In this document: piece by piece, positions 28,545 to 54,639 of the stretch | Layout: the number at the start of each line of letters is the position of its first letter | Numbering within the stretch: position 1 is the first letter of the stretch | Program-made: the position numbers and the translations under genes | Source of the DNA: Undibacterium sp. Jales W-56 | Lineage (GTDB): Bacteria; Pseudomonadota; Gammaproteobacteria; Burkholderiales; Burkholderiaceae_D | Assembly (NCBI RefSeq): GCF_025548535.1 | Contig: NZ_JAJLQW010000001.1 | Coordinates: 868,001 to 932,000, forward strand | DNA length: 64,000 nt | Direction: 5' to 3' | Notes under the pieces: model-generated | What the model saw: only the letters and a program-made list of their open reading frames with translations | Databases searched by the model: none | What the model was told of the DNA's origin: nothing

Positions 28545-28625
28545 GACGATAAAGTTGAGTTTAAATAATTAAAAATGCAACCCGCACTATCCATCGGCCT
28601 CTTGGAGCATAAATGGCCCAGAAGC

Positions 28626-28641
28626 CGCATGGATATTGCGG
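28626..28641. repeat. 16-bp sequence repeated upstream of hutH and downstream of parE
   Basis: CGCATGGATATTGCGG occurs here and again at 43628-43643. Both copies form a small CGCA/TGCG hairpin. Each is intergenic, which suggests a dispersed element, though only this core is shared. Confidence 0.5.
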
Positions 28642-28673
28642 GATGCTTTGTTGAAGTGCCATAAAGGACAACC

Positions 28674-39330: not shown

Positions 39331-40983
39331 ATGTCATCGGACAACTCTGGTTTGCAGGCGAAATTACAGGTTTTAGAAAATTTGTTTCGCGAAAGACTTC
39401 CTTCGAAAATTCAAGAAATGGAAGTGGCGCTGGAGCGTTTTTTAATTAACCCGCAAGATCAGGAGGCACTGACTTCCTTGCATCGTGCATTGCATACGAT
39501 GGCGGGATCAGCGGGAACATTTGGGTTTTCTGAAATTGGTGTAGATGCCCGTGAATTTGAAAAAAAATTAAAACCGATATTGACTGGTGAAACCTGGACC
39601 AAGAAAGAGAGGAACGCGTATGCCAAAGAACTACGTGCTTACTTTGAAGATGCGATCCTGTGCGCGGCAAATAAAATTATCCCTACCCTGCTCGAAGAAT
39701 CAGTAGAAAATCAAAAGGAAGATGCAAGCTCACGGCTGGTCTACATGGTCGATGATGATAACGAAACCACGCAATCGATCAAAGTCCAGCTTGAGCATTT
39801 TGGATACGAAGTGGTACTGATCACCCAACTTAAATCGCTGGCAGTGGCGATCGCAACGCGGCGCCCGGATATCGTGGTGATGGAATTCGGTTCTCCTGAC
39901 GGAAAAATGGCAGGCGCCGATGAAATAGCCAGGATCAAGTTACATGCCCGCCTGCATATCCCGACTATTTTTGTGTCACATGCCAGCAGTTTTGAAAATC
40001 GCTTGCAGGCAGTCAGGGCAGGCGGTGATGGCTACTTCACCAAGCCGGTTGATATAGTGGCTCTGACCGAACGTATCGACGCGGTAGTGGGGCGCGAAGA
40101 GCCGAAGAGTTATCGTATCCTGGTCATCGATGACGATGTCGTGACCTCGGAATATTACGGGGCGGTATTGCGTAATGCCGGGATGAGCGTCAGGACCTTG
40201 CATGACCCTGCACGCATGCTGAATACCTTAACGGATTTTCGGCCTGAATTGATTTTGCTCGATGTCTACATGCCGCTGTGTAGCGGTGTCGAGCTGTCCA
40301 AGATGATACGTCAGGATAATTCTTATCTGGATATTCCTATCGTCTTTCTATCCAGTGAAAATGACATGGCCAAGCAGTTGGAGGCGGTCAAGGCGGGGGC
40401 GGACGACTTTATCACCAAGCCGATAGAGGCGCAATTCCTGGTCTCCTCACTCGCCACCCGGGCGGAGCGCTATCGTTCCTTGCGTGCCCTGATCATGCGT
40501 GACGGACTGACTGGCCTGTACAACCATACTGCGATTAAAGAAGAGCTTGCCGCAGAGATTTCCATCGCCGGAAGAAATCAAACCTCACTGGCATTAGCGG
40601 TACTCGATCTGGATTTCTTTAAGAACGTCAACGATACTTATGGCCATCCGGTGGGCGATCAGGTGCTGCGCACTTTATCGCGTTTGCTTAAGCAAAGGTT
40701 ACGCCGCAGCGATATTGTCGGTCGTTATGGCGGCGAGGAATTCGTCATTATTTTCCCCGGCACTACCGCTAAAGTGGCCGGCAAAGTGCTGGATCAAATC
40801 AGAGTCGCTTTTAACAAGATAGAACAGCATGCGGAGCAAGGCGAGTTTTCGGTGAGTTTTTCGGCCGGGGTTGCAGATCTGGAGCAAACTATCGATGCTG
40901 ACGAATTATTTGATATCGCAGATTCCGCTTTATACCGTGCCAAGCAAGGCGGGCGCAACCGCATTGCGCTGGCCAGTCCGTGA
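39331..40983 (+). CDS. Hpt-REC-REC-GGDEF diguanylate cyclase
   Basis: 550 residues. Hpt domain (about 10-125) with His55 in LHTMAGSAGTFGF. First receiver (about 135-255) has Glu185 (IVVMEFG) in place of the phosphoacceptor Asp but keeps Lys238. Second receiver (about 262-375) is complete with Asp311 (LLDVYMP) and Lys363. GGDEF domain (about 385-548) has GGEEF at 467-471 and the inhibitory RxxD site RRSD at 458-461, so it should make cyclic-di-GMP under product control. Layout suggests Hpt to second-receiver relay. Followed by a good terminator. Confidence 0.95.
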   Translation: MSSDNSGLQAKLQVLENLFRERLPSKIQEMEVALERFLINPQDQEALTSLHRALHTMAGSAGTFGFSEIGVDAREFEKKLKPILTGETWTKKERNAYAKELRAYFEDAILCAANKIIPTLLEESVENQKEDASSRLVYMVDDDNETTQSIKVQLEHFGYEVVLITQLKSLAVAIATRRPDIVVMEFGSPDGKMAGADEIARIKLHARLHIPTIFVSHASSFENRLQAVRAGGDGYFTKPVDIVALTERIDAVVGREEPKSYRILVIDDDVVTSEYYGAVLRNAGMSVRTLHDPARMLNTLTDFRPELILLDVYMPLCSGVELSKMIRQDNSYLDIPIVFLSSENDMAKQLEAVKAGADDFITKPIEAQFLVSSLATRAERYRSLRALIMRDGLTGLYNHTAIKEELAAEISIAGRNQTSLALAVLDLDFFKNVNDTYGHPVGDQVLRTLSRLLKQRLRRSDIVGRYGGEEFVIIFPGTTAKVAGKVLDQIRVAFNKIEQHAEQGEFSVSFSAGVADLEQTIDADELFDIADSALYRAKQGGRNRIALASP

Positions 40984-41041: not shown

Positions 41042-41048
41042 ATTGGGA

Positions 41049-41211
41049 CTGACGCAAAAGCCAAAACCTCTCACCACAGAGACACAGAGAAAAAGCAAGA
41101 GTAACCCTGCTCCATGGAATGTCGATATCAAAACGAATCCGCAAGCTGGATGCGCCTGTCAACACAAAATGCCTCTGAAAGCCGCATCCAGCCTGCGGAT
41201 TCAATGTGAGT
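41049..41211. repeat. Palindromic MITE-like repeat, copy 1 (3' truncated)
   Basis: Begins with the terminal sequence CTGACGCAAAA, then a segment with CCTCTCACCACAGAGACACAG, then a 20-bp inverted repeat: GAATCCGCAAGCTGGATGCG (41135-41154) and CGCATCCAGCCTGCGGATTC (41183-41202), one mismatch. It stops short of the 3' terminal repeat and runs directly into the parC stop. Copies 2 and 3 are at 52129-52350 and 54467-54628. Confidence 0.85.
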
Positions 41212-41219
41212 TAATACAT

Positions 41220-43556
41220 TTAACTGACGCGAGCGATGGTGAGCGGTTTTAATTTCGCTTCCAGCAACTTGCCTTTGCGCGCACGTTTGCCGATGTGAAT
41301 GCCCAGAGCGTTCGCGCTTAATGTCACTTCCTGAGGCTTCGTAGCGCGTCCGGTACCTGAGACTTTGACGCCTTTCTGGCTGATGGCTTGCGCTGCCAGC
41401 AGTTTTTCCTTGGCCTCAAGCTCCATCAGGATCACGCCGCGACCGCCGCTGGCGAGTTGCTTGATTTCCGTCAGGCCGAATACCAGCAGGCGTCCTTTTT
41501 CCGACAAGCAGGCAATTGCGCTGCTGTCTTCTGCCACCACCGTCGGTTGCAATGGTTCGTCGCCTTCTTCGAGTGTCATGAAGGCTTTACCCGCTTTCAT
41601 ACGGCCAACCATATCACCGGCCTTGGCGGTGAAGCCATAGCCGGCGCTGGATGCCAGCAAGAGCGTCGATTCGGCAGTGCCGGCAAAGTAATGCAGGATT
41701 TTGCTGCCGCTGGCCAGGTCGATCAGGGTCGTAATCGGCACGCCATCGCCGCGCGCGCCGGGCAGGGCGGCGACTGGGACGGAATACACGCGGCCATTAG
41801 AGCCGAACATCAGCAACTGGTCGACGGTGCGGCACTCAAAGGTGTTGTACAGACTGTCGCCGGCCTTGAAGGTGAATTGAGCATTGTCGTGGCCGTGACC
41901 CGTGCGGGCGCGTACCCAGCCTTTGTCGGAGATGACGACAGTGACGGGTTCATCGATGACTTTCTGTTCGATCGAGGCTCGTGCCGCTTCTTCGATCAAT
42001 GTGCGGCGCGCGTCGCCATATTGTTTGGCATCGGCTTCGATTTCTTTGATGATGCATTTCTTCATCGATGCAGGATTGTCGAGCAGATCTTGCAAACTGG
42101 TTTTTTCCAGACGCAATTCTTCCAGCTGCTGCTGGATCTTGATGGCTTCCAAACGGGCCAACTGGCGCAAGCGAATTTCCAGAATATCTTCGGCCTGGAT
42201 ATCGGACAGCCGGAAGGCCTCCATCAAGGCCGGTTTCGGTTCATCGGATTCGCGGATGATCTTGATCACCTTGTCGATATTCAGCAGTACCGCTTCGCGG
42301 CCTTCTAGAATATGGATGCGGTCATCGACCTTTTTCAGCTTGAATTGGGTGCGGCGGGTGACCGTGGTAAAGCGGAAGCCGATCCATTCCTTCAGGATAT
42401 CGAGCAGACCTTTTTGACGCGGGCGACCATCGCCGCCGATCATGACCAGATTGATCGAGGTCGAAGTTTCCAGCGAGGTATGCGCCAGCAACATCTGCAT
42501 GAACTCGGCCTGATCCTGATTTTTGGATTTCGGCTCCAGCACCAGGCGCACTGCGGCTTCGCGACCGGATTCGTCGCGTACCGCATCGAGCATGGACAAC
42601 ACGACTTGCTTCAGCGAAGCCTGCTCCGGCGTCAGGGTTTTTTTACCCAGCTTGATTTTTGGATTGGTGATTTCTTCGATTTCTTCGAGAATTTTTTGCG
42701 AAGAAACACCGTGCGGCAATTCGGTAATCACGGCTTGCCACTGACCGCGCGCCAGTTCTTCAATCTTCCAGCAGGCGCGTACCTTCATGCTGCCGCGACC
42801 GGCGGCGTAGATGTCGGCAATCGCGGCCGCAGGCGTGATGATCTGTCCGCCGCCCGGGAAGTCCGGCCCCGGGATCATGCTCATCAATTCGGCATGCTGC
42901 ATGGCCGGGTTGCGGATCAGCGCGACCGCGGCTTTCGCAACTTCGGTCAGATTATGCGAAGGTATTTCGGTCGCCATGCCGACCGCAATACCGGATGCGC
43001 CGTTCAGCAGGACGAAAGGCAGGCGGCCCGGCAGCAGGCTGGGTTCTTCAAACGAACCATCGTAGTTCGGCTGGAAATCGACCGTGCCGAGATCGATCTC
43101 ATCGAGCAGCAAGCGCGAGATCGGCGTCAGCCGCGCTTCGGTATATCGCATCGCCGCAGCGCCGTCGCCGTCGCGTGAACCGAAATTGCCCTGGCCATCG
43201 ATCAGCGGATAGCGCAAAGAGAAATCCTGTGCCATCCGCACCATCGCGTCGTACACGGATTGATCACCATGCGGATGCAATTTACCCAGCACATCACCGA
43301 CCACGGTCGCCGATTTACGCGGCTTGGCGGCGGAACTCAGACCCAGTTCATTCATCGAAAACAGGATACGGCGCTGTACCGGTTTTTGGCCGTCGCAGAC
43401 ATCCGGCAAGGCGCGGCCCTTGACTACCGAGATCGCGTAATCGAGATAGGCGCGCTCGGCGAAACTCGCCAGCGTCAGGGTCTCTCCTGCCTCGCCGCCG
43501 TTGCCACCGTTATCGTCATCAGGTGCCTGATCAAATAAATTTGCTTGTTCGCTCAT
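41220..43556 (-). CDS. parC: Topoisomerase IV subunit A (ParC)
   Basis: 778 residues. The breakage-rejoining domain has the catalytic Tyr in [12 protein letters not shown], and the C-terminal beta-pinwheel part carries FxxGxR-like blades. It decatenates daughter chromosomes with ParE. The quinolone-contact segment reads [12 protein letters not shown], with Gln and Asp at the positions of E. coli Ser80 and Glu84. It lies about 200 bp downstream of parE on the minus strand. The MITE-like repeat ends at its stop. Confidence 0.96.
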
Positions 43557-43602
43557 AGTGTCTGTTTTTACTTAAATTCGTTTGCGCAGTATTCATGCCG
43601 GT

Positions 43603-43625
43603 TTCCAGATATTTTTGTCCTGGAA
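43603..43625. repeat. Short hairpin in the parE-parC gap
   Basis: TTCCAG ... CTGGAA with the loop ATATTTTTGTC. A similar hairpin at 48700-48725 has the same ATATTTTTG core with different arms (TCCGGA-type), so the two may be one dispersed element. Confidence 0.4.
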
Positions 43626-43627
43626 TG

Positions 43628-43643
43628 CGCATGGATATTGCGG
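43628..43643. repeat. Second copy of the 16-bp intergenic repeat
   Basis: CGCATGGATATTGCGG, identical to 28626-28641, in the gap between parE and parC. Confidence 0.5.
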
Positions 43644-43753
43644 TTTGGTTTTTTTATGGCGTTTCCGTAAATCCGATTATCGGGATGCAGAGCAAGGCGC
43701 ACAACGTCGCGATACGCCGCTATGGGCCCGACAATGGGATTTGCCGGAGCCCA

Positions 43754-45745
43754 TCAAATATCAGCCTCTACCTCATTGCCGTGCTCTTCCAGCCAGGCGC
43801 GACGTGCAGCGGCTTCGCCTTTACCCATCAGCATATTGAAACGCGCTTCGGAAAAGGCTTGATCGAATTCGCCCAAAGAGACCGGCAAAAGACGGCGGGT
43901 GTCCGGGTTCATGGTGGTTTCCCACAACTGTTCTGCGTTCATCTCACCCAGGCCTTTAAAACGCGAGATCGCCCAGGCACCGTCTTTGACGCCGTCTTTG
44001 CGCAGCTTGTCTTCAATCGCGACCAGTTCGCCGGCATCCAGCGCGTACATCTTCTGGATCGGCTTTTTGCCGCGAGCTGGCGCATCGACACGGAATAGCG
44101 GAGGGCGCGCAATGCAGACGTGACCGCGTGCGATCAATTTAGGGAAATGTTTGAAGAACAGCGTCAACAACAAGACCTGGATATGAGAGCCATCCACGTC
44201 GGCATCGGACAAGATGCAGATCTTGCCGTAACGCAGATTCGACAGATCGGGATTGTCGTTCGGACCGTGCGGATCGACGCCGACCGCCACCGCGATATCG
44301 TGGATTTCGTTATTCGCAAACAGGCGATCGCGCTCGGATTCCCAGGAGTTCAGCACCTTGCCGCGCAAGGGCAGGATCGCCTGGAACTCTTTATCGCGGC
44401 CCATCTTGGCAGAGCCGCCGGCAGAATCGCCCTCGACCAGAAACAGTTCGTTGCGGGTGATGTCGTTCGATTCGCAGTCGGTCAGCTTGCCTGGCAATAC
44501 TGCCACGCCGGAGGATTTTTTCTTCTCGACTTTTTGCGCCGAACGCAGGCGGGATTGCGCTTGTTTGATGACCAGTTCGGCGAGTTTTTTGCCGAGATCA
44601 ACATGCGAGTTCAGCCACAGTTCCAGCGGCGGTTTGGTGAACGACGACACCAGACGCACCGCATCGCGCGAGTTCAGCCGTTCTTTGATCTGGCCCTGGA
44701 ATTGCGGGTCGAGCACCTTGGCCGACAGTACGAACGAGACGCGGGCAAACACGTCTTCCGGCAGCAATTTCACGCCTTTCGGTAACAGCGAGTGCATCTC
44801 GGCGAAGCTCTTCACCGCACCGAACAAGCCTTCGCGCAAACCGGATTCATGCGTACCGCCGGCCGGTGTCGGGATCAGATTCACATACGATTCGCGCACC
44901 GGCGCACCTTCTTCGGTCCATGCGACGACCCATGATGCGCCTTCGCCTTCGGCAAAACCGTCGGCGTCTTTACCGGCGAATTGTTCGCCTTCAAATAAAG
45001 GGATCAAGGGTTCGGCGTGGGAGGATTGGGTTAAGGCTTCGGTCAGATAGCCGCGCAAGCCCTGGTCGTATTGCCAGGTTTGCGTGTCGCCGCTCCTGGT
45101 ATTGATCAGTGTGACCTTGACGCCCGGTAGCAACACGGCTTTGGAACGCAACAGGCGCTGCAGCTCAGTTTGAGAAATGTTCGGCGAGTCAAAATATTTG
45201 GCGTCCGGCCAGATTGTGACGCGGGTCCCGCTCTTTTTGTCGCCACGCCCCAGTGCTTCCGAGGTCAAGGGTTCGATCACATCACCACTGGCGAAGGTCA
45301 GTTTATGCAAACCGCCTTCGCGCCAGACCGTGATCTCCAGGCGCGTCGAGAGCGCATTGGTGACCGAGACGCCGACGCCATGCAGACCGCCCGAGAACGC
45401 GTACGCGCCGCCGCTGCCCTTGTCGAATTTGCCGCCCGCATGCAGGCGGGTGAAGACGATTTCCACCGTCGGCACCTGCTCTTCAGGATGCAGGCCGACC
45501 GGAATGCCGCGCCCATCGTCTTCCACCGTCACGCTGTTGTCAGCGTTGAGTGTGACAACGATATTCTTGCAATGACCGCCCAGCGCTTCATCCGAGGCAT
45601 TGTCGATGACCTCCTGGATGATGTGCAAAGGGTTTTCGGTGCGGGTGTACATGCCCGGTCTTTGCTTGACCGGCTCCAGCCCTTTCAGGACACGGATGGA
45701 TGATTCGCTATAGTCGGAAGCTGTGGTGTTTTTCTTGGTGGCCAT
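43754..45745 (-). CDS. parE: Topoisomerase IV subunit B (ParE)
   Basis: 663 residues. GHKL ATPase part: ALGGHCKNIVV, EDDGRGIPVG, SGGLHGVGVSVTNAL. TOPRIM part: LFLVEGDSAGGSAK and SDADVDGSHIQVLLLT. Supplies ATP-driven strand passage to ParC. It is the upstream gene of the pair. The gap between it and parC holds a hairpin and a repeated 16-mer. Confidence 0.97.
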   Translation of the reverse strand: MATKKNTTASDYSESSIRVLKGLEPVKQRPGMYTRTENPLHIIQEVIDNASDEALGGHCKNIVVTLNADNSVTVEDDGRGIPVGLHPEEQVPTVEIVFTRLHAGGKFDKGSGGAYAFSGGLHGVGVSVTNALSTRLEITVWREGGLHKLTFASGDVIEPLTSEALGRGDKKSGTRVTIWPDAKYFDSPNISQTELQRLLRSKAVLLPGVKVTLINTRSGDTQTWQYDQGLRGYLTEALTQSSHAEPLIPLFEGEQFAGKDADGFAEGEGASWVVAWTEEGAPVRESYVNLIPTPAGGTHESGLREGLFGAVKSFAEMHSLLPKGVKLLPEDVFARVSFVLSAKVLDPQFQGQIKERLNSRDAVRLVSSFTKPPLELWLNSHVDLGKKLAELVIKQAQSRLRSAQKVEKKKSSGVAVLPGKLTDCESNDITRNELFLVEGDSAGGSAKMGRDKEFQAILPLRGKVLNSWESERDRLFANNEIHDIAVAVGVDPHGPNDNPDLSNLRYGKICILSDADVDGSHIQVLLLTLFFKHFPKLIARGHVCIARPPLFRVDAPARGKKPIQKMYALDAGELVAIEDKLRKDGVKDGAWAISRFKGLGEMNAEQLWETTMNPDTRRLLPVSLGEFDQAFSEARFNMLMGKGEAAARRAWLEEHGNEVEADI

Positions 45746-45942
45746 GCAATAAATACGTTGGAGTTGTGGCTTGTGTTGAAAATTAGGTATTATTTCGCAA
45801 AATTTGCAGGTGTTTGCAAGATTTCACTGTATTCTGGCAATCAATTTTTTGAACAACAGAGGCAAGAGCGCTGCTGTAAAGCGACTTCCCCCTGCTTGTT
45901 CATTTGCGGCTATTGTAGCTGCAATGTGTTGATGGATAAACG

Positions 45943-46770
45943 ATGTCACAAAAATCTCCTACGATCGCTATTCGACTGATTGGATTTTTACCCAAAGAAG
46001 AAGATACTTTTTCCAGCGTTCTTGCGGTCCTGCGCGAGAAAGGCTATCGCTACCTGTGCCTGAAGGATGGCAGCCTGCAAGACCCAGATCTGTTCATTGT
46101 GAATGCAGAAGATATCAAGGCCCTGGCGACGCTGTCCGACATTAATCCCGGCAGCGCGCAACCGGTGCTGTTGATTGGCAAGACCAAGGTGAGCTTGCCG
46201 TATGCAGTCATGCCGCGCCCGATTCGCTGGCGCAAATTATTCGATGTGCTGGATGAACTGGTTGATGAACGCCAGTTGCTGCTGACGACCTTGAGTGCAT
46301 ATGGCGAAGTCGCCGTGCCGGAGCGCCGTCGTCGCGAGCGGCTTGATCTTGATCTGACCGATCCTTCGGTGTATCAAAAAATGCGTAATTCCGCGCCTCC
46401 CAGGGGCGGGATTCTGATCATCGATAAAGATATGCGCTTCCGCGATTATGTGGCGGCGATTATGGATCGCTATCGTGTGCCGGTCGGGATGACCAATGAC
46501 GCCGAGAATGCGCTGGCGCTGGATGCCGAGTACAAATACGCGCTGACCATGATCAATACATCGACGCCGGATATTGATCCTTACGGCCTGTGCCGCTTGC
46601 TCAAAGCGCAGAATCAGGGCCGTAAAACCAGCGTCATCTTTTTGATCGACAAGACTTACGTTTATAACCAGGATTTTGCGCTCAGCGTGAACTGCGATGG
46701 CTTCCTGAATAAGCCCTTGTCACGCAAGCTGGTCTTATCGACGATTAAAAAATTCCTGCAACTCACGTAG
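45943..46770 (+). CDS. Tandem pseudo-receiver protein
   Basis: 275 residues. The C-terminal part (about 155-272) is receiver-like: IIDKD at 159-163 and Lys257 in LNKPLSR, but the phosphoacceptor position is Asn205 (LTMINTSTPD). The N-terminal part (about 6-115) also aligns to a receiver, with Asn54 (DLFIVNAED) at the acceptor site and Arg92 in place of the Lys. Two phosphorylation-dead receivers linked by an Arg-rich hinge (129-134) suggest a binding or scaffold role. It diverges from parE across a 197-bp gap. The fold assignment of the first half is less certain. Confidence 0.75.
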   Translation: MSQKSPTIAIRLIGFLPKEEDTFSSVLAVLREKGYRYLCLKDGSLQDPDLFIVNAEDIKALATLSDINPGSAQPVLLIGKTKVSLPYAVMPRPIRWRKLFDVLDELVDERQLLLTTLSAYGEVAVPERRRRERLDLDLTDPSVYQKMRNSAPPRGGILIIDKDMRFRDYVAAIMDRYRVPVGMTNDAENALALDAEYKYALTMINTSTPDIDPYGLCRLLKAQNQGRKTSVIFLIDKTYVYNQDFALSVNCDGFLNKPLSRKLVLSTIKKFLQLT

Positions 46771-46802
46771 CCCACCTCAGCTTGACCTGCTTTGGCAAGC
46801 GC

Positions 46803-47972
46803 TTATTTGCTCAATAAGCGCATACCTCTCTCCAGGCCTTCTATGGTAACCGGGAACATCCGGTTGTTCATCAATTGCTTGATGATCGATACCGATTGGC
46901 GGTACTGCCACAGGCCTTCCGGTTCGGGATTCAGCCAGATGAACTTGGGAAAGGTCGAGGTAAAGCGTTGCAGCCATTGCGCCCCGGCTTCGTCATTATT
47001 GTATTCAACCGAGCCGCCGGCCTGCAGAATCTCATACGGACTCATGGTCGCGTCGCCCACGAAAATCACCTTGGTATCCGGCGTGTATTTGCGCAGCACA
47101 TCCCAGGTCGGAAATTTTTCTGCATTGCGGCGGCGGTTGTTTTTCCATAAATAGTCGTACACGCAGTTATGGAAGTAAAAAAATTCCATGTTCTTGAATT
47201 CGGTTTTCGCGGCCGAAAATAATTCCTCGGTACGGGCAATGTGATCGTCCATGGTGCCGCCGACGTCCAACAGCATCAGGACCTTGATATTGTTCTTGCG
47301 CTCGGGCTGCATTTTGATATCGAGGTAGCCGGCATTGTTGGCCGTGGCCTTGATCGTGGCATCCAGTGCCAATTCATCTTCTGCTCCTTGGCGGGCGAAT
47401 TTTCGCAGGCGGCGCAGTGCGATCTTGATATTGCGGGTGCCGAGTTCGCGTTCATCATCGTAATCGCGGAAGCTGCGCGCCTCCCAGACTTTGACCGCAG
47501 TGCGGTTACCGCCTTTGCCGCCGATACGTATGCCTTCGGGATTTTGGCCGCCGTTACCGAACGGAGAGGTGCCGCCGGTACCTATCCATTTGCTGCCGCC
47601 TTCATGGCGCTCTTTCTGTTCTTTCAGTAGTTCTTGCAACCTGTTCATCAGCTTGTCGTAACCGAATTTTTCCAGCGCCGCTTTTTGTTCATCACTGAGT
47701 TCGCGCTCCATGCGCTTGGTCAGCCATTCCAGCGGAATTTCAGGATGCTTTTCAAAGATCGTATCGATACCTTTGAAGTAGAGCCCAAAGGCTCTGTCGA
47801 ACTTGTCATAGTGCGCCTCGTCCTTGACCATGATGGTGCGCGACAGGAAGTAGAAGTCGTCCATGGCCATGCTGATCAAACCTTTGTCCAGGGCTTCAAG
47901 CAGCGTTAAAAATTCCTTGATGGAGACAGGGATTTTTGCATCCTTGAGCGTATAAAAAAAATCGATCAGCAC
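46803..47972 (-). CDS. CoxE-like von Willebrand factor A protein
   Basis: 389 residues. A helical N-terminal region (MLIDFFYTLKDAKIPVSIKEFLTLLEAL) typical of CoxE/YehP-like proteins precedes a Gly-rich stretch (about 125-165) and the VWA domain (about 200-385). The metal-site motif is DVGGTMDD, not the classical DxSxS, as in CoxE members. Such proteins usually act with a MoxR AAA+ ATPase to insert cofactors or remodel complexes; no moxR gene is adjacent. The gene is followed closely by the divergent-running pseudo-receiver gene's end. Confidence 0.9.
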   Translation of the reverse strand: MLIDFFYTLKDAKIPVSIKEFLTLLEALDKGLISMAMDDFYFLSRTIMVKDEAHYDKFDRAFGLYFKGIDTIFEKHPEIPLEWLTKRMERELSDEQKAALEKFGYDKLMNRLQELLKEQKERHEGGSKWIGTGGTSPFGNGGQNPEGIRIGGKGGNRTAVKVWEARSFRDYDDERELGTRNIKIALRRLRKFARQGAEDELALDATIKATANNAGYLDIKMQPERKNNIKVLMLLDVGGTMDDHIARTEELFSAAKTEFKNMEFFYFHNCVYDYLWKNNRRRNAEKFPTWDVLRKYTPDTKVIFVGDATMSPYEILQAGGSVEYNNDEAGAQWLQRFTSTFPKFIWLNPEPEGLWQYRQSVSIIKQLMNNRMFPVTIEGLERGMRLLSK

Positions 47973-48006
47973 GGGTTACTCCTGCAAATGAGCTTGTTTT
48001 TCGTAT

Positions 48007-48603
48007 TTATGTCGTCTGGTATTTGTCGCGCATGTACTGCAAATTCTGTTTTACGCCTGGCCACTCATTTTGGATGATGCTGTACACCACCGTATCTCTG
48101 ACGCGTCCATCGGGCAATATCATGTGATTGCGCAACACGGCATCGCGCTTTGCTCCCAGACGTTCAATCGCCGCTTGCGAGCGATGATTGAACCAGTCGG
48201 TGCGGAATTCCACGGCGATACAGTCTAAGTGTTCGAATGCCTGGGTCAGCAACAAGAGTTTGCATTCGGTGTTCACTGCGCTACGCTGCACACGTCGGGC
48301 GTACCAGGTATAGCCGATTTCCAGGCGCTTATTATTATGATCGATATTGCAGTAACGCGTGGAGCCGACGATCTGGCCGCTCGCTTTTTCCCTGACGGCA
48401 AAAGGAATAGCCTTGGTTTGCTGCTGCAGTTCGAGTGCCATATCCAGCCAGTCCTGCGCTTTATCCGGATGCGGTACCGAGGTAAAGAAGAGTTTCCATA
48501 ATTCGCCGTCTGCTGCTGCAGCCTGGATCGCGGGCAGGTGTTGTTGCGTTAATGGTTCCAGGCTGACGTGCTGACCTTGTAGCGTAAACGGACTGCATTG
48601 CAT
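48007..48603 (-). CDS. GNAT-family N-acetyltransferase (RimJ/RimL type)
   Basis: 198 residues from ATG 48603, preceded by AAGGAAT; the frame is open a further 75 bases but without a good start. The N-terminus LQGQHVSLEPLTQQHLP and the IGYTWYARRVQRSAVNTECKLLLLTQAFE, RTDWFNHRSQAAIERLGA blocks are typical of RimJ/RimL-like acetyltransferases. The substrate is not predictable: possibly a ribosomal protein N-terminus, an amino acid or a peptide. Monocistronic between coxE-like and rpsT. Confidence 0.9.
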   Translation of the reverse strand: MQCSPFTLQGQHVSLEPLTQQHLPAIQAAAADGELWKLFFTSVPHPDKAQDWLDMALELQQQTKAIPFAVREKASGQIVGSTRYCNIDHNNKRLEIGYTWYARRVQRSAVNTECKLLLLTQAFEHLDCIAVEFRTDWFNHRSQAAIERLGAKRDAVLRNHMILPDGRVRDTVVYSIIQNEWPGVKQNLQYMRDKYQTT

Positions 48604-48699
48604 AAATATTCCTTTGTGACGACGATAATTTATTGAGTTTCCCGATATTTTTCCGGCAAGAACAGATACAGTGATCAATTATGATGATGAATACAACCA

Positions 48700-48725
48700 T
48701 TCCCGGATATTTTTGCTGTCCGGAA
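48700..48725. repeat. Short hairpin upstream of rpsT
   Basis: TTCCCGGA and TCCGGAA around ATATTTTTGCTG, similar in core to the hairpin at 43603-43625. It lies in the divergent gap between the GNAT gene and rpsT. Confidence 0.4.
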
Positions 48726-48776
48726 ATAGGTTTTGAATAGATTCTGGCATAGTGACATAATCGTTTTATACGATAC

Positions 48777-48805
48777 TTGCTAACTGAAAAAAAAACAGTT
48801 ATACT
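48777..48805 (+). promoter_or_regulatory. Sigma-70 promoter of rpsT
   Basis: TTGCTA (48777-48782) and TATACT (48800-48805) with a 17-bp spacer, 85 bp before the rpsT start. The spacer itself is an inverted repeat TAACTG / CAGTTA around nine A's. The match to the consensus is good. Confidence 0.75.
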
Positions 48806-48889
48806 GCAAAGCTGTACAGAATTATGCGGCGTGGCAATCTTGTGAGGTCACTTTGAACCCGTCGCTCTTGACCACGTTTAGGAAATCTC

Positions 48890-49153
48890 ATGGCAAATAC
48901 CGCACAAGCACGCAAGCGTGCTCGTCAAGCAGTAAAACAAAATGCACACAACTCCAGCCAGCGTTCAACGCTGCGTACAGCAATCAAAGCTGTTCGCAAA
49001 GCGATTGAAGCAGGTGATAAAGCTGCTGCTGCAACAATCTTCCAATCGTCTGTTTCAACGATTGATCGTATTGCTGACAAAAACATCATTCACAAAAACA
49101 AAGCAGCACGTCATAAGAGCCGTTTGGCTTCCGCTTTGAAAGCTTTGGCTTAA
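48890..49153 (+). CDS. rpsT: 30S ribosomal protein S20
   Basis: 87 residues, starting [18 protein letters not shown] with the usual Lys/Arg-rich helices and ending in ASALKALA. S20 binds 16S rRNA and stabilises the 30S subunit. It stands alone between its own promoter and an intrinsic terminator, as in most proteobacteria. Confidence 0.98.
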
Positions 49154-49208
49154 TTATTTAAGTCTGTTGTTGCTACCGTCGAAGGTGGCAATGCAAAAGC
49201 AGTCAATA

Positions 49209-49237
49209 AAAAACCGCAATCATGTATTGCGGTTTTT
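49209..49237 (+). terminator. Intrinsic terminator of rpsT
   Basis: AAAAACCGCAAT and ATTGCGGTTTTT form a perfect stem around CATGT, followed by more T's. It starts 55 bases after the stop. Confidence 0.92.
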
Positions 49238-49324
49238 GTTTTTGCTGTTCCAGATGAGGAATACCTTTGTCGATGACGGAGTTGAGGCCGTCACCGATAA
49301 GCTAAAACGATGAGCTAAAAACTT

Positions 49325-49768
49325 TTATTGCAGCGGCAGCCCTTCGATTTTGGTGCCGGGCTTGACGTTTTTCTGTTTAAACCATCCCAGATTCATTTCC
49401 AGTGCATAGCGCACAGTTTTTTTGGCGCAATGCGAATCGGTCGTTTCCGGCTGCATATCCTCGACGTTCACGATTTTTCCTTCGCCATCAATAAAGGCGA
49501 CCGAGAGCGGAATCAAGGTGTTCTTCATCCACATGCAGACACCGGCTGGCGCGCCAAAATCAAACACCATGCCTTCGCTCGCACCCATGCGCGTCCTGTT
49601 CATCAGGCCTTGCTGGCGATCCGCATCCGTGGCGGCGACTTCAGCTTGAATCACATTAATGCCGATGGACAATTGTTTAACGGGAAGCCTGGTTTGGGCG
49701 GTAGCGCAGGCGCAAGTCAAAGAAAGTAAAGCCAGAGCTGTAAGTTTGCGGACAGAAGAATTAGTCAT
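49325..49768 (-). CDS. DUF192 family secreted protein
   Basis: 147 residues. N-terminal signal with a lipobox-like LTCAC. The mature protein is a DUF192 domain: IQAEVAATDADRQQGLMNRTRMG, GMVFDFGAPAGVCMWMKNTLIPLSVAFID and VRYALEMNLGWF. The fold is known; the function is not. Transcribed opposite to rpsT and separate from rluE. Confidence 0.92.
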   Translation of the reverse strand: MTNSSVRKLTALALLSLTCACATAQTRLPVKQLSIGINVIQAEVAATDADRQQGLMNRTRMGASEGMVFDFGAPAGVCMWMKNTLIPLSVAFIDGEGKIVNVEDMQPETTDSHCAKKTVRYALEMNLGWFKQKNVKPGTKIEGLPLQ

Positions 49769-49946
49769 AAAATTTCAGTATATGAATTTGATGTTGGCGT
49801 GTTTGCAGGGGCGGGTAAATATAAAGCCCAATACGATAATTTTAAAACGTCAGTGTACTACGACGGATTTCATTCTTAATTGACAGATACATGTTGGAAA
49901 CAAAAAAAGCTCGGGAACCTGCTTTTTCATCGGGCTCATCATTGAT

Positions 49947-50516
49947 TTATGAGCCAGTCCGATTGAGGTGCTTAGGATCTACTTTGATCCAGGAGCCCGG
50001 CATTAGGGGGAAGTTTTCTAATGAAAATCCCCCGATAGCGCTGCGTATCAGCCGCAGCGTAGGCAAGCCTGCTGCCGCTGTCATGCGCCTGACTTGCCGG
50101 TTTTTCCCTTCGGTCAGACTGATGCATAGCCAACTGGTAGGGATATCTTCCCTGTGCCGTATCGGTGGATTCCTAGCCCAGATCCATTCCGGCGCATAAA
50201 TATGCTTCACCTCGCATGGTTTGGTAATGAAGTCACCTAAATCCAGCGGATTGCGCAATTTTTCCAAAGCCGCGCGATCAGGTTTGCCTTCAACCTGCAC
50301 CAGGTAAGTTTTTGCCTGCTTCAGGTCAGGATGGCTGATTGCATGCTGCAACTTACCGTCATCCGTCAGCAGCACCAGGCCCTCGCTATCTGCATCCAGG
50401 CGGCCGGCAGGGTAGACGCCTGGCACATCCACATAATCGGCCAGGGTCTGGCGGTCAGGATGTGCGGAAAATTGGCACATCACATTGTAAGGTTTATTGA
50501 GTAATATCAAATTCAT
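49947..50516 (-). CDS. rluE: Pseudouridine synthase, RluE/RsuA family
   Basis: 189 residues, no S4 domain. The catalytic Asp is in PAGRLDADSEGLVLLTDDG, followed by the KTYLVQVEG and GKNRQVRRMTAAAGLPTLRL segments. The compact form without S4 and the C-terminal SIGGFSL fit RluE, which modifies U2457 of 23S rRNA. RluE against other RsuA-family members is chosen by pattern only. Confidence 0.88.
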   Translation of the reverse strand: MNLILLNKPYNVMCQFSAHPDRQTLADYVDVPGVYPAGRLDADSEGLVLLTDDGKLQHAISHPDLKQAKTYLVQVEGKPDRAALEKLRNPLDLGDFITKPCEVKHIYAPEWIWARNPPIRHREDIPTSWLCISLTEGKNRQVRRMTAAAGLPTLRLIRSAIGGFSLENFPLMPGSWIKVDPKHLNRTGS

Positions 50517-50743
50517 GACGCTATGATAATCTGCGTTGTCTGGGAGGTGTTGATCCTGGCGCTGTAAACTGATGGCATCTAGTAAAATACTAGTGCATAA
50601 TACGAAATGGTAGTCTTGTGTCTTATATAAGAGTAAATATAAAGGCAGTTAAAACGTCCGATTATTAGCTAAATAAGAACGAGACAAGACTTGTTATGAG
50701 CGAAGTGCGACCCGCTAAATCGCCCAAATCTACGGAGAAAAAG

Positions 50744-51997
50744 ATGTACCAACATATTAAAGTTCCCGCTGAAGGTAAGCAAATTACCGTCAATGCCGAT
50801 TTCTCATTGAACGTTCCAGACAATCCTATCATCCCTTTTATCGAAGGCGATGGTACCGGCGTTGATATCAGCCCGGTTATGATCAAAGTGGTGGATGCAG
50901 CCGTAGCTAAAGCGTACGGCGGCAAGCGTAAAATCAGCTGGATGGAAATCTATGCCGGCGAAAAATCGACCAAAGTATACGGCCCGGACGTCTGGTTGCC
51001 GGAAGAAACGCTGAAAGTCCTGAAAGACTACGTCGTTTCCATCAAAGGCCCATTGACGACGCCAGTTGGCGGCGGTATTCGCTCCCTGAACGTGGCCTTG
51101 CGTCAAGAGCTGGATCTGTATGTCTGCCTGCGTCCAGTGCGTTATTTCAAAGGCGTGCCATCGCCAGTGCGTGAGCCGGAAAAAACGGACATGGTCATCT
51201 TCCGTGAAAACTCGGAAGACATCTATGCCGGTATCGAATTCGCAGAAGGCTCCGATCAGGTTAAAAAACTGATCAAGTTCTTGCAAGATGAAATGGGCGT
51301 CAAGAAAATCCGCTTCCCGGATACATCCGGTATCGGTGTGAAACCGGTGTCCCGTCAAGGTACTGAGCGTCTGGTGCGTAAAGCGATTCAGTACGCGATC
51401 GACAATGACAAGCCATCCGTGACCATCGTTCACAAAGGTAACATCATGAAGTACACCGAAGGTGGCTTCCGTGACTGGGCATACGCTCTGGCGCAAAAGG
51501 AATTCGGCGCAGAACTGATCGATGGCGGCCCATGGTGCAAATTCAAGAATCCAAAAACCGGTAAAGAAATTACGGTCAAAGATTCCATTGCTGATGCCTT
51601 CTTGCAGCAAATCCTGTTGCGTCCGAATGAGTACAGCGTCATCGCGACACTGAACCTGAACGGCGACTACATCTCCGACGCGCTGGCAGCGCAAGTCGGC
51701 GGTATCGGTATCGCTCCGGGTGCTAACTTGTCCGACTCTATCGCGATGTTCGAAGCCACGCACGGTACTGCCCCTAAGTACGCCGGTAAAGATTATGTGA
51801 ACCCAGGTTCTTTGATCTTGTCCGCTGAAATGATGTTGCGTCACATGGGCTGGCTGGAAGCCGCTGATCTGCTGATCAGCGCGACGGAAAAAGCGATTAC
51901 AGTCAAGAAAGTGACTTACGATTTCGCCCGTCTGATGGAAGGCGCTACTCAAGTATCTTGCTCAGGTTTCGGCGATGTCATGATCGAAAACATGTAA
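50744..51997 (+). CDS. icd: NADP-dependent isocitrate dehydrogenase
   Basis: 417 residues from ATG 50744 ([11 protein letters not shown]), with GGAG 6 bases before it; the frame is open 48 bases further. Key segments: [10 protein letters not shown], the substrate loop around [28 protein letters not shown] and [12 protein letters not shown]. It converts isocitrate to 2-oxoglutarate in the citric-acid cycle, and in E. coli its serine ([10 protein letters not shown]) is phosphorylated by AceK. Followed by an intrinsic terminator. Confidence 0.97.
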
Positions 51998-52021
51998 GAC
52001 AAGTGTTGATGCTCGGTTAGC

Positions 52022-52059
52022 AAAAAAGCCGGTTCTGCGTAAGCGAATCGGCTTTTTTT
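52022..52059 (+). terminator. Intrinsic terminator of icd
   Basis: AAAAAAGCCG and CGGCTTTTTTT arms, with GTTC/GAAT-type extra pairing and a CTGCGTAAGC loop, end in seven T's. Clear Rho-independent form, 25 bases after the icd stop. Confidence 0.9.
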
Positions 52060-52128
52060 ATTGATCGGTATTGGTGTATTAGTCTGCGTCAGAGTTGCTA
52101 AAGTCGGTCGGTGTTTTTAACGGTAGGG

Positions 52129-52350
52129 CTTACGCAAAAAGCAAAATCTCTCATCGCGGAGACTCGGAGACACAGAGGAAAAGCAAGAGTAAGCAGCGCC
52201 ATGGGATGTTGATATTAAAGGGTTTTTAGAAGTTACCTAAAACGAACCCGCAAGCTGGCTGCACCTGCTGGCACGAAATGCCTCTGAAAGCCGCAGCCAG
52301 CCTGCGGGTTCAATATGAGTTGTGGTAGGCGTTTTTCCGTTTTGCGTAAG
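52129..52350. repeat. Palindromic MITE-like repeat, copy 2 (full length)
   Basis: 222 bp bounded by an 11-bp perfect terminal inverted repeat, CTTACGCAAAA (52129-52139) and TTTTGCGTAAG (52340-52350). Inside is a hairpin with arms GAACCCGCAAGCTGGCTGCA (52244-52263) and CGCAGCCAGCCTGCGGGTTC (52292-52311). Compared with copy 1 the changes T to C and A to C in the left arm are mirrored in the right arm. No coding capacity. Confidence 0.9.
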
Positions 52351-52390
52351 TTTTAAGCGGTTTTTTCGCTTAAAACCAAGCTTGCCGACT

Positions 52391-53029
52391 TCACAAAATT
52401 GTCTGGTTCAACGCAAAGCGGATCAAATCCGCCTGCCCTTCAATATTCAGTTTACGCTTGATATTGAGCCTATGCGTTTCCACCGTCCTGACGCTCAGTC
52501 CCAGTTCGCGTGCAATGTGTTTGTTCGACTTGCCGGTCGCAATACTTTTTAAAATACATTGCTCTCTTTGGGTTAACAATTGCAGAGGATTTGCTGCTGT
52601 CGCCTGATTTTGCAGCCCTGAACTGAAATAGTTTTTGCCGGACATGACGTTTTCTATGGCGGTAATAATTTCTTCGGCAGGCGCACCTTTCAGCACATAG
52701 CCGCGCGCTCCGGCTTGCATGGCCTGGGATACATACTCCGCCTTTTCATGCATCGATAACATGATGATCGCGATATCCGGATATTCCCTGGAAAAGCGCG
52801 AGGTCAGGGTGATGCCGTTCACATTGCCCAAATTGATGTCCATCAAAATCAAATCGATCTTCAGGCTTGCCGCCAGGCTGAAAGCGTCTTCCGCATTACC
52901 CGCTTCGCCGGCGATATGAAAATGCGGGATGGTTTCTAAACGCGCTTTCAACCCATCCCTGACTAGCGGGTGATCATCGACTAGAAGTAAATTGATCGGT
53001 TTAGTGCTGATTATTGGCGGTACGTTCAT
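52391..53029 (-). CDS. NarL/FixJ-type response regulator
   Basis: 212 residues. Receiver (about 10-130) with DDHP, Asp in LILMDINLGNVNG and Lys in YVLKGA; LuxR-type helix-turn-helix (about 148-208) with LTQREQCILKSIATGKSNKHIARELGLSVRTVETH. It is the output half of a two-component system with the next gene, whose stop overlaps its start by 4 bases on the minus strand. Target genes cannot be read from the sequence. Confidence 0.95.
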   Translation of the reverse strand: MNVPPIISTKPINLLLVDDHPLVRDGLKARLETIPHFHIAGEAGNAEDAFSLAASLKIDLILMDINLGNVNGITLTSRFSREYPDIAIIMLSMHEKAEYVSQAMQAGARGYVLKGAPAEEIITAIENVMSGKNYFSSGLQNQATAANPLQLLTQREQCILKSIATGKSNKHIARELGLSVRTVETHRLNIKRKLNIEGQADLIRFALNQTIL

Positions 53030-54390
53030 TGCATACTCCTTGGAATCTGGGCGCTCACCTGAGTCCCGCCGGCATCAGAGCGCACTGCCAGCCGGCCATT
53101 CACGCTCGCCAGGCGTTCGCGCATATTGCTCAGGCCGATGCCATGCTTGGGATGGCTGGCGATACCTGGTACGTCGAACCCGGCACCATTATCGGCAATG
53201 ATCAAATTGACCATGCGCTGATCGCCCGATAATTCGATATCGACTTGCGAGGCATTGCGCGCATGCTTGTGGATATTGGTCAAGGCTTCCTGCGCAATCC
53301 GGAACAGTACGGTATTGCTGGTATCGCTCAGGCCGCTGATATCACCGAGGATTTGCAGGTGTACCGGCAAACCGCTGTCCTCCATGAATTCTTCTGCGAG
53401 ATGTTCAAACGCTACGGCCAGCCCCAGGTCATCCAGCATCGCAGGCCGCAAATCATGCGAAATTCGTCTTACCTCCCCCAGTGCTTCATTCAATTGCGAG
53501 GTGGCTCTTGTGAAGGACAGGCGTGCCGATTCCGTGTCGGTTTTCGGCAATCCCAATTTTGCAATGCCTGATTCGATTTGCAGCTTAATCGAGACCAGCA
53601 ACTGACTGATGCCATCATGCAGATCGCGCGACAGGCGGGCGCGCTCATCCTCCTGCGAGCGCACCACGCTTTGCGCCAAGGCCTTTAACTTTGCTTCCGC
53701 TATGCGTGATTCGCTGATATTTAAAGCCATACCGGAAACCGCAATCAACAAGGCACTGATGACCGCGATACTGGTGATCCAGAACATCGTACTCTGGCTG
53801 TTCCTGGTATTCTGCGCATCGATTTTATTCAGTGCATTATCGACGTCATCGAGATAAATCCCGGTACCCAGCACCCAGCCCCAGCGCTCCAGTGCCACCA
53901 CGTAACCCAGTTTGGGCGCAACCTTATGGGTTGAAGGTTTTTCCCATAGATAACGCACGGCGCCGCCGCCTTCCTTGGCTTTGGCGATCAATTTGCGAAT
54001 GGTGAAGTTGCCTTCCGGATCGGTCAAATTCCACAGGTCTTTACCGACCAGATCGCTTTGGCGCGGATGCATCAGGTTTTTGCCCTGCATGTCGTACAGA
54101 TAGAAATAGCCGTCATCGCCGAAATCGAGTTTGGCTAAAATCGCTTTCGCTTCTTCTTGTGTTGCGGCATTTTGTAGCTGCGCGTTATACAGCTTGGAAA
54201 TCGCTGCCACACCGAGATTCACATAATGCTTGAGCTCGGTTTCTTTACTCGCCAGATAAGCTTGCTCTACCGTATTGCGCTGTTGCTGCGCCAGCAAGTT
54301 CGTCTGATAAAACACCGCAAGCGCGATCGCCGCAAACGATAAAAGTAGCGGAATGATCGCAAACAGGATGATTTTATAGCGCAGCTTCAT
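53026..54390 (-). CDS. Cache-domain sensor histidine kinase (HisKA_3)
   Basis: 454 residues. Two membrane segments (about 8-30 and 200-222) flank a periplasmic Cache sensor (about 35-190, with GDDGYFYLYDMQGKNLMHP and the WGWVLGTGIYLDDV end). The HisKA_3 box has His in ARLSRDLHDGISQ, and the ATPase domain shows HARNAS and DNGAGFD, GIGLSNMRERL. It senses a small periplasmic ligand, probably an organic acid or amine. Co-translated with the downstream regulator. Confidence 0.95.
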   Translation of the reverse strand: MKLRYKIILFAIIPLLLSFAAIALAVFYQTNLLAQQQRNTVEQAYLASKETELKHYVNLGVAAISKLYNAQLQNAATQEEAKAILAKLDFGDDGYFYLYDMQGKNLMHPRQSDLVGKDLWNLTDPEGNFTIRKLIAKAKEGGGAVRYLWEKPSTHKVAPKLGYVVALERWGWVLGTGIYLDDVDNALNKIDAQNTRNSQSTMFWITSIAVISALLIAVSGMALNISESRIAEAKLKALAQSVVRSQEDERARLSRDLHDGISQLLVSIKLQIESGIAKLGLPKTDTESARLSFTRATSQLNEALGEVRRISHDLRPAMLDDLGLAVAFEHLAEEFMEDSGLPVHLQILGDISGLSDTSNTVLFRIAQEALTNIHKHARNASQVDIELSGDQRMVNLIIADNGAGFDVPGIASHPKHGIGLSNMRERLASVNGRLAVRSDAGGTQVSAQIPRSMQ

Positions 54391-54466
54391 AGTGGCTAAG
54401 GTATCAGATTCTTATGGAAATGCTGGCACAATCTGAGCGCATCATGGATATCTCAAATAAATAGGA

Positions 54467-54628
54467 CTTGCGCAAAAAAACAAAACCTCTCACCGCCGAG
54501 ACACGGAGGATAGATTAAAACGAACCCGCAATCAGAATGCGCCTGCTGGCACGAAATGCCTCTGAAAGCCGCATCCAGCCTGCGGATTCAATAGAAGTTG
54601 AGATAAGCCGTTTTCCGTTTTGCCTAAG
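54467..54628. repeat. Palindromic MITE-like repeat, copy 3 (shorter form)
   Basis: 162 bp. Terminal repeats CTTGCGCAAAA and TTTTGCCTAAG are imperfect. The left hairpin arm GAACCCGCAATCAGAATGCG (54522-54541) has several mismatches to the right arm CGCATCCAGCCTGCGGATTC (54570-54589), so the stem is decayed. The loop CTGGCACGAAATGCCTCTGA is the same as in copy 2. A segment of the left part is deleted relative to copies 1 and 2. Confidence 0.85.
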
Positions 54629-54639
54629 TACTAATAAAA

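Follow-up and report, generated by a model that had tools for sequence, protein, structure and literature searches.

The 64,000-nt stretch of Undibacterium sp. Jales W-56 analyzed here (contig NZ_JAJLQW010000001.1, positions 868,001 to 932,000; the window) contains three copies of a dispersed repeat that we read, from sequence comparisons, as a miniature inverted-repeat transposable element (MITE), very probably derived from the IS701 family of insertion sequences and carrying captured palindromes. A sequence-only reading of the window had described three repeats with a long internal hairpin; all three were present, and each was matched by a covariance model of that hairpin, here called H (E ≤ 1.7e-13). 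The boundaries first proposed (41049-41211, 52129-52350, and 54467-54628) were extended to those in Table 1, the right limit of copy 1 being approximate, and an 11-bp terminal repeat was lengthened to 16 bp on the basis of a consensus of 55 copies. The left arm of copy 3 was decayed, as had been said, and its fold (z only -1.5) was equalled by 20 of 200 shuffled sequences. Copy 1 has a GGDEF-type gene (39331-40983) on one side and a topoisomerase IV subunit A-like gene ending at 41220 on the other (both by inspection), and no right terminal repeat was found for it at up to two mismatches. None of the open reading frames (ORFs) of at least 90 aa, the only lengths considered, overlapped the three copies. 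Two further, weaker matches to the H model were obtained in the window at 28579-28644 (37.4 bits) and 43581-43646 (23.7 bits), and no MITE end was found beside either at up to two mismatches.

Table 1. Positions of the repeat copies and their parts in the window
Feature	Position	Strand	Remarks
MITE copy 1	41044..41212	+	Right end lost; similarity ceases near 41212 (by eye)
MITE copy 2	52124..52355	+	Complete, terminal repeats at both ends; 5-bp flanks AACGG / AGCGG
MITE copy 3	54462..54633	+	Complete, shorter interior (172 bp); perfect 5-bp flanks ATAAA / ATAAA
Copy 2 left terminal inverted repeat	52124..52139	+	YAGGACTTACGCAAAA type
Copy 2 right terminal inverted repeat	52340..52355	-	
Copy 1 module M	41067..41089	+	CCTCTCACCACAGAGACACAGAG; single arm of a second dispersed palindrome
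Copy 3 module M	54486-54508		Copy 2 version more diverged
Copy 1 hairpin H	41136..41201	+	Covariance model 57.8 bits; fold z -6.3
Copy 2 hairpin H	52245..52310	+	Covariance model 70.1 bits; fold -45.1 kcal/mol, z -5.2
Copy 3 hairpin H	54523..54588	+	Covariance model 70.2 bits; decayed left arm
Remnant of a second MITE inside copy 2, one 18-bp end	52220..52237	-	Unrelated to the first MITE

Copy number, target duplications, and the source of the ends

The genome that holds the window (G000) is a draft of 4,185,614 bases in 20 contigs. A BLAST search of it with the repeat returned 65 match rows, some copies giving two, and a 13-base end sequence was present at 153 places at up to one mismatch, compared with 16 for the same pattern read backward. 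The covariance model of H gave at least 123 matches; among the matches listed, 102 were distinct places, and window copy 1 and seven lower-scoring loci (L080, L082, L083, L090, L095, L098, and L099) lie outside these, so the genome has at least 110 distinct H places. The expectation of many copies in the genome was thus borne out. The 55 fetched copies whose match reached both ends were taken as full copies. Their consensus is 210 bp long, runs from TAGGACTTACGCAAAA to TTTTGCGTAAGTCCTA, and has 16-bp inverted ends, and the copies average 86% identity to it (range 75.5-92.3%). When ORF contexts were assigned by a greedy longest-ORF rule that used no annotation, 0 of the 55 lay within a heuristic ORF of more than 150 aa, and 3 at the edge of their locus were unclassifiable.

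Target duplication, which the sequence-only reading had suggested looking for, was examined by scoring flank registers of 2 to 12 bp at offsets of 0 to 3 against flanks shuffled among the 55 copies. The best register was the 5 bp immediately outside the 16-bp ends (mean match 0.749 versus 0.415 shuffled, z 14.3); at least four of the five bases were equal in 41 copies, and all five in 21. Perfect 5-bp flanks also border elements of ~100 bp with the same ends on three contigs of a virus collection (L332, L342, and L346).

Twenty other genomes, 19 of them from the same genus, were searched for a 15-mer of the end; 17 contained it, and none gave a hit for the backward control. Across the bacterial family the 15-mer was present in 30 of 145 genomes including that of the window, from 12 of 44 genera and as a single match in some, with four backward hits in total. 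The loci read with this 15-mer were mostly MITEs of ~67, 100, and 200 bp with differing interiors. In two drafts of other genera (G095 and G150), the end recurs ~125 bp from contig starts, the pattern expected of a collapsed multi-copy element. An autonomous element of 1099 bp read at such a place (L431:614-1712) has the same ends around a 337-aa ORF, which matched the NCBIfam model NF049921 (transpos_IS701_2, IS701) with 379.5 bits at a cut-off of 250 and, in Pfam, DDE_Tnp_1, DDE_5, and DDE_Tnp_2; the 15-mer left end is present in both L431 and L443. The ends of a relative on a Paraburkholderia plasmid equal those of the MITE at 16 of 16 bases and are flanked by ACCTC/ACCTC, and the Planktothrix element whose record names it ISPlag1 has the ends CAGGACTTACGCA and TGCGTAAGTCCTG and the flanks TTCAA/TTCAA (by eye). 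A full transposon with the ends of the MITE, which had been proposed as a target of search, is therefore found elsewhere, on the Paraburkholderia plasmid and as L431, but not in the genome of the window, where its transposase was unmatched.

The transposase was matched in 12 of 68 genomes searched, 5 of them Undibacterium. In G007 the match is a distant open frame, 35% identical to the transposase and without such ends; those in G015, G022, G052, and G054 are short pieces. The piece in G015 (L461) has an end with one mismatch 79 bp ahead of it, and that in G054 (L460) lies at a contig end beside an end sequence, the ends at these two pieces having one or two mismatches. Other candidates for the partner or source were rejected. 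The window's own genome gave two matches to DDE_Tnp_1: one has other ends, with an intact MITE nearby, and is presumably an IS5-like element, and the other has only a loose end with three mismatches. Exact ends 0.8 to 6.5 kb apart in G014 and G015 did not delimit an autonomous element; those that could be paired were small MITEs, the rest stood alone, and no transposase could be recognized in between. In the virus collection, 66 stretches had the 15-mer and good ends were paired just ~100 bp apart, and a plasmid search with the whole MITE gave three records with short matches inside module M only. In addition, locus L101 holds at 1073-1905 an insertion sequence that we take to be IS5-like, with its transposase over two overlapping frames near an A run, possibly a programmed frameshift.

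Palindromes in the interior and on their own

The segment that forms module M, CTCTCACCACAGAGACACAGAG, is a dispersed repeat itself and a single arm of a palindrome. Eighteen of 24 further Undibacterium genomes had matches to the MITE query, those listed falling in its first 85 bases. Module M was also matched in a genome of another family (G037), and short matches were obtained on cyanobacterial and other plasmids. Among 28 M loci of relatives, some of which overlap, both inverted arms were found in 8 with a strict pattern and an IS701-type end in 1. The MITE of the window's genome retains one M arm, whereas a MITE of G014 has both. A second, unrelated MITE, which has the ends GGGAACTTCTAAAAACCC, occupies one and the same ATAT/TAAA/ACG spot in several copies of the first, with duplication of TAAA (by eye); both ends of such nested copies are visible in L013 and L026, and the second MITE lies to the right of the hairpin in L018, L226, and L244.

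A search with the hairpin only gave weak matches in 16 of 43 genomes, the own genome included. Most of the 18 loci read were the palindrome without the MITE, and four (L168, L177, L179, and L186) resembled chance matches in coding sequence (by eye). The covariance model was built with 17 pairs from 15 sequences, of which relatives supplied 12 and MITEs of the own genome 3, and was applied at E ≤ 0.01 with stricter filters. It matched 18 of 42 Undibacterium genomes, again including the own genome, and none of the other 24. There were 106 to at least 123 matches per genome in five, the own among them; three others had 45, 36, and 35, and ten had 1 to 16. This patchy distribution is suggestive of a trans-acting partner that has been gained and lost. 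From 89 rows in four relatives (G006, G013, G015, and G057, out of 17 with matches), 50 places were chosen, rows for the same palindrome on the opposite strand being omitted, and removal of 4 identical orthologues left 46 hairpins. An IS701-type end (up to 3 mismatches in 14) was found within 140 bp of 35 of 40 H loci in the own genome versus 3 of these 46, where we estimate that ~1 in 46 would be expected by chance at that looseness; the remaining 43 have no MITE ends nearby. Among the five own loci that lack an end, L241 and L257 resemble the loci of the relatives (by eye). The nearest gene end was a 3' end for 28 of the 37 relative hairpins that could be scored with heuristic ORFs, 7 of the 46 being at an edge and 2 inside a heuristic ORF of more than 150 aa. 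Hairpin H thus looks captured by the MITE from a dispersed, free-standing repeat. The exact hairpin core GGCACGAAATGCCTCTGAAAG had no match in a collection of species genomes, which may omit the own genome. The loop of the free-standing hairpin was matched exactly on a metagenome-assembled contig labelled Parvularculaceae (L400), perhaps misbinned.

The interior of the MITE is not uniformly variable. For all pairs of the 55 full copies, the mismatch fraction was 0.14-0.15 in the hairpin, 0.15-0.18 in the ends, and 0.33 in the spacer and right subterminal part; for the 20 closest pairs, the values were 0.07-0.08, 0.10-0.13, and 0.14, respectively. Nineteen copies that were found by their ends alone gave 0.17-0.20 for the hairpin, 0.11-0.13 for the ends (the selection criterion), and 0.37-0.41 for the spacer and subterminal part, so the low variation of the hairpin is not just an artefact of finding copies by it. 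At such end-found loci the hairpin core was present in 16 of 16 end pairs counted, and the H model matched all 19 loci to which it was applied, out of 23 (L078-L100). Either the sequence of the captured parts is under constraint, whether in their source lineage or within the MITE, or the copies exchange sequence there.

Stem evolution, rival explanations, and relation to known elements

From compensating changes in copies 1 and 2, the sequence-only reading had deduced that the stem is selected or that its arms are converted. The arm pairs that it quoted are present, and their bases did literally change together, but over a larger set of copies this was not beyond chance. The set comprised 76 hairpin cores of 78 nt (75 distinct cores from the own genome and window copy 1; cores at loci fetched later were not included), in which 24 pairs were scored. 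Watson-Crick cells amounted to 1468 of 1824 versus 1461 ± 5 when the 3' bases were reshuffled, and compensated double-change cells, both quoted cases among them, to 13 versus 8.9 ± 2.3 (largest shuffle 16). Both measures lean upward within the range of the shuffles and give no clear support for selection, and the deduction is not supported for these MITE copies. Correction within the hairpin, by which one arm would be copied from the other and compensated bases would result, could account for the 3 of 13 double changes that fall in a single copy, L084. The double changes overall are not clearly above the shuffles, however, and the right-arm variant AGATTGCG is common to L084, L078, L093, and a free-standing hairpin (L167/L268), so ancestry accounts for these copies too; we consider arm correction very unlikely. 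The free-standing hairpins behaved differently. The 15-sequence alignment had 29 double changes versus 15.0 ± 3.0 and a covariation score of 0.225 versus 0.127 (equalled by 0 of 500 shuffles), and the 36 of the 46 distinct relative hairpins that are exactly 66 nt long (21 pairs) had 69 double changes versus 37.8 ± 4.6 and 569 of 756 Watson-Crick cells versus 517 ± 8, with shuffles that leave relatedness in place and a stem named by hand. RNAalifold, run unaided on the 15-sequence alignment, predicted only three pairs and no covariation, so the covariation result rests on the hand-named stem. Together with the strong folds of copies 1 and 2 and the conservation of the hairpin beyond that of the spacer, this covariation is what speaks for a structured RNA whose stem is selected in every copy, the mobile look being incidental. 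That explanation is nevertheless very improbable: the 76 MITE copies show no clear excess of covariation, copy 3 scarcely folds better than shuffled sequences, 5-bp target duplications would be needless for an RNA gene, and in the window no match to an Rfam family attained the gathering score (a search of nine loci at E ≤ 1 gave three hits, all under that score). Where a mobile element and a structured RNA had both been said to fit, the 16-bp ends, the 5-bp duplications, the more than 100 copies, and the IS701 elements uphold the former, and the latter is very improbable for the dispersed repeat. The covariation in the hairpins of sister species leaves a structured RNA as a possible origin of the captured hairpin.

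Hairpin H might instead be a repetitive extragenic palindromic (REP) sequence dispersed by a REP-associated tyrosine transposase (RAYT), with the flanking ends inserted later. A palindrome with more than 100 matches in each of five genomes and a patchy presence across species would be in keeping with this, as would the two Y1-transposase genes of the own genome and the 24 matches in seven hairpin-bearing relatives. The surroundings of these genes argue otherwise. No H hairpin was found at E ≤ 1 within ~1.5 kb in 20 of 26 Y1-transposase loci (eight genomes; two pairs of loci overlap), and in the six loci that hold hairpins, a number near chance by our estimate from hairpin density, none brackets the gene. 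The RAYT-like gene of the own genome (L195; G000:C14:490335-490655) is flanked by a different inverted palindrome, GTAGGTnCGATTAGCGCAGCGTAATCG (by eye), and some RAYT genes adjoin other GTAG-type palindromes (by eye). As no RAYT gene was bracketed by H in these loci, a RAYT/REP origin of H was rejected, and we hold it to be very unlikely. The gene at L195 with its own palindromes is a classical REP arrangement, separate from the MITE.

We conclude that the repeats are an IS701-derived MITE carrying captured palindromes, a reading to which we assign a probability of roughly 0.93. Because its 16-bp ends (YAGGACTTACGCAAAA) are those of IS701-family (ISPlag1-type) insertion sequences, an IS701 transposase acting in trans probably cut and inserted the MITE, each insertion duplicating 5 bp of an AT-rich, mostly intergenic target. 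The interior appears to have been put together from two repeats that are themselves dispersed, palindrome M, of which it has one arm, and hairpin H, which is complete; both stand free of the MITE ends in further species of Undibacterium. Amplification within the lineage would then have given the at least 110 H places; with full copies at a mean identity of 86% to their consensus, this burst is probably old. The transposase gene may since have been lost from the own genome or may lie within an assembly gap. The data show directly the ends, the target duplications, the copy number, the equality of the ends with those of autonomous IS701 elements, and the presence of M and H in relatives without MITE ends; from them we infer mobilization in trans, the order of capture, the age, and the loss of the source.

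Several findings weigh against this conclusion. Over all copy pairs, the passenger hairpin varies as little as the transposase-required ends, and its variation is under half that of the spacer, a behaviour that a purely passive passenger would not show. Fourteen of the 55 full copies have no four-of-five flank match. The sole complete autonomous copy at L431 has unmatched flanks (TCACC / TGAAT), and of a Nodularia relative only the right end is visible within the stretch examined. A search for ends beside the transposase pieces at up to four mismatches had a background of 17 hits, MITE ends among them, in 19,449 bases; for this reason, ends with more than two mismatches were disregarded. Finally, an IS701-type transposase gave no matches in the 20-contig draft of the own genome; this absence bears on present activity and not on origin.

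As a transposon the repeat is ordinary and of a known type, though its interior is unusual. The results assign abundant small repeats of the genus to a transposase family and define their exact ends and target duplication. The hairpins of relatives covary and the transposon-borne copies do not clearly do so, which illustrates that compensating changes in two copies can mislead. Because H occurs both alone and inside the MITE, selection on passenger hairpins becomes testable. The free-standing family is the part of most interest to specialists. We suggest tentatively, as a possibility that we rate well below even odds, that H is an undescribed Undibacterium repeat family with a covarying stem of 17-21 bp and a conserved loop, mostly at gene 3' ends and without a RAYT, that may work as a DNA hairpin bound by a protein or as an element of mRNA 3' ends, and that may have been domesticated by the IS701 MITE and kept because it aids spread or tolerance. 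Literature searches found no description of this element or of the captured hairpin.

With the IS701 family (ISPlag1-type) the MITE shares its 16-bp ends, identical at 16 of 16 bases to those of the Paraburkholderia element, and the length of the duplication; it differs in having no transposase gene, in its length (210 bp versus ~1.1 kb), and in an interior made of other repeats. The accessible part of PMC8472584 assigns ISAba11 to the IS701 family, and that of PMC7885321 credits it with a "characteristic 5-bp direct repeat," in agreement with the duplication seen here. In PMC10969869, bacterial MITEs are described as having inverted ends and direct repeats, AT-rich targets between genes, transcripts that form stem-loops, and an origin from insertion sequences. 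Like REP sequences and bacterial interspersed mosaic elements (BIMEs) with their RAYTs, H is a palindrome that reaches more than 100 matches in some genomes and for the most part has a gene 3' end as its closest gene end, but it is ~66 nt long with a conserved loop, no GTAG-type motif was seen in it, and no bracketed RAYT was found in the loci tested. The BrickBuilt-type MITE of Porphyromonas, with its internal minisatellite, and the mosaic elements from Tn3-derived inverted-repeat miniature elements (TIMEs) are, in the partial descriptions by which we compared them, likewise non-autonomous and carry or assemble other sequence, with different transposase families and passengers. Correia elements of Neisseria and MITEAba12 of Acinetobacter, as far as the available excerpts describe them, share general MITE features with the present element. 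The target of the Correia element is TA; the ends and target size of both differ from those found here, where the interior hairpin is also an independent repeat in sister species.

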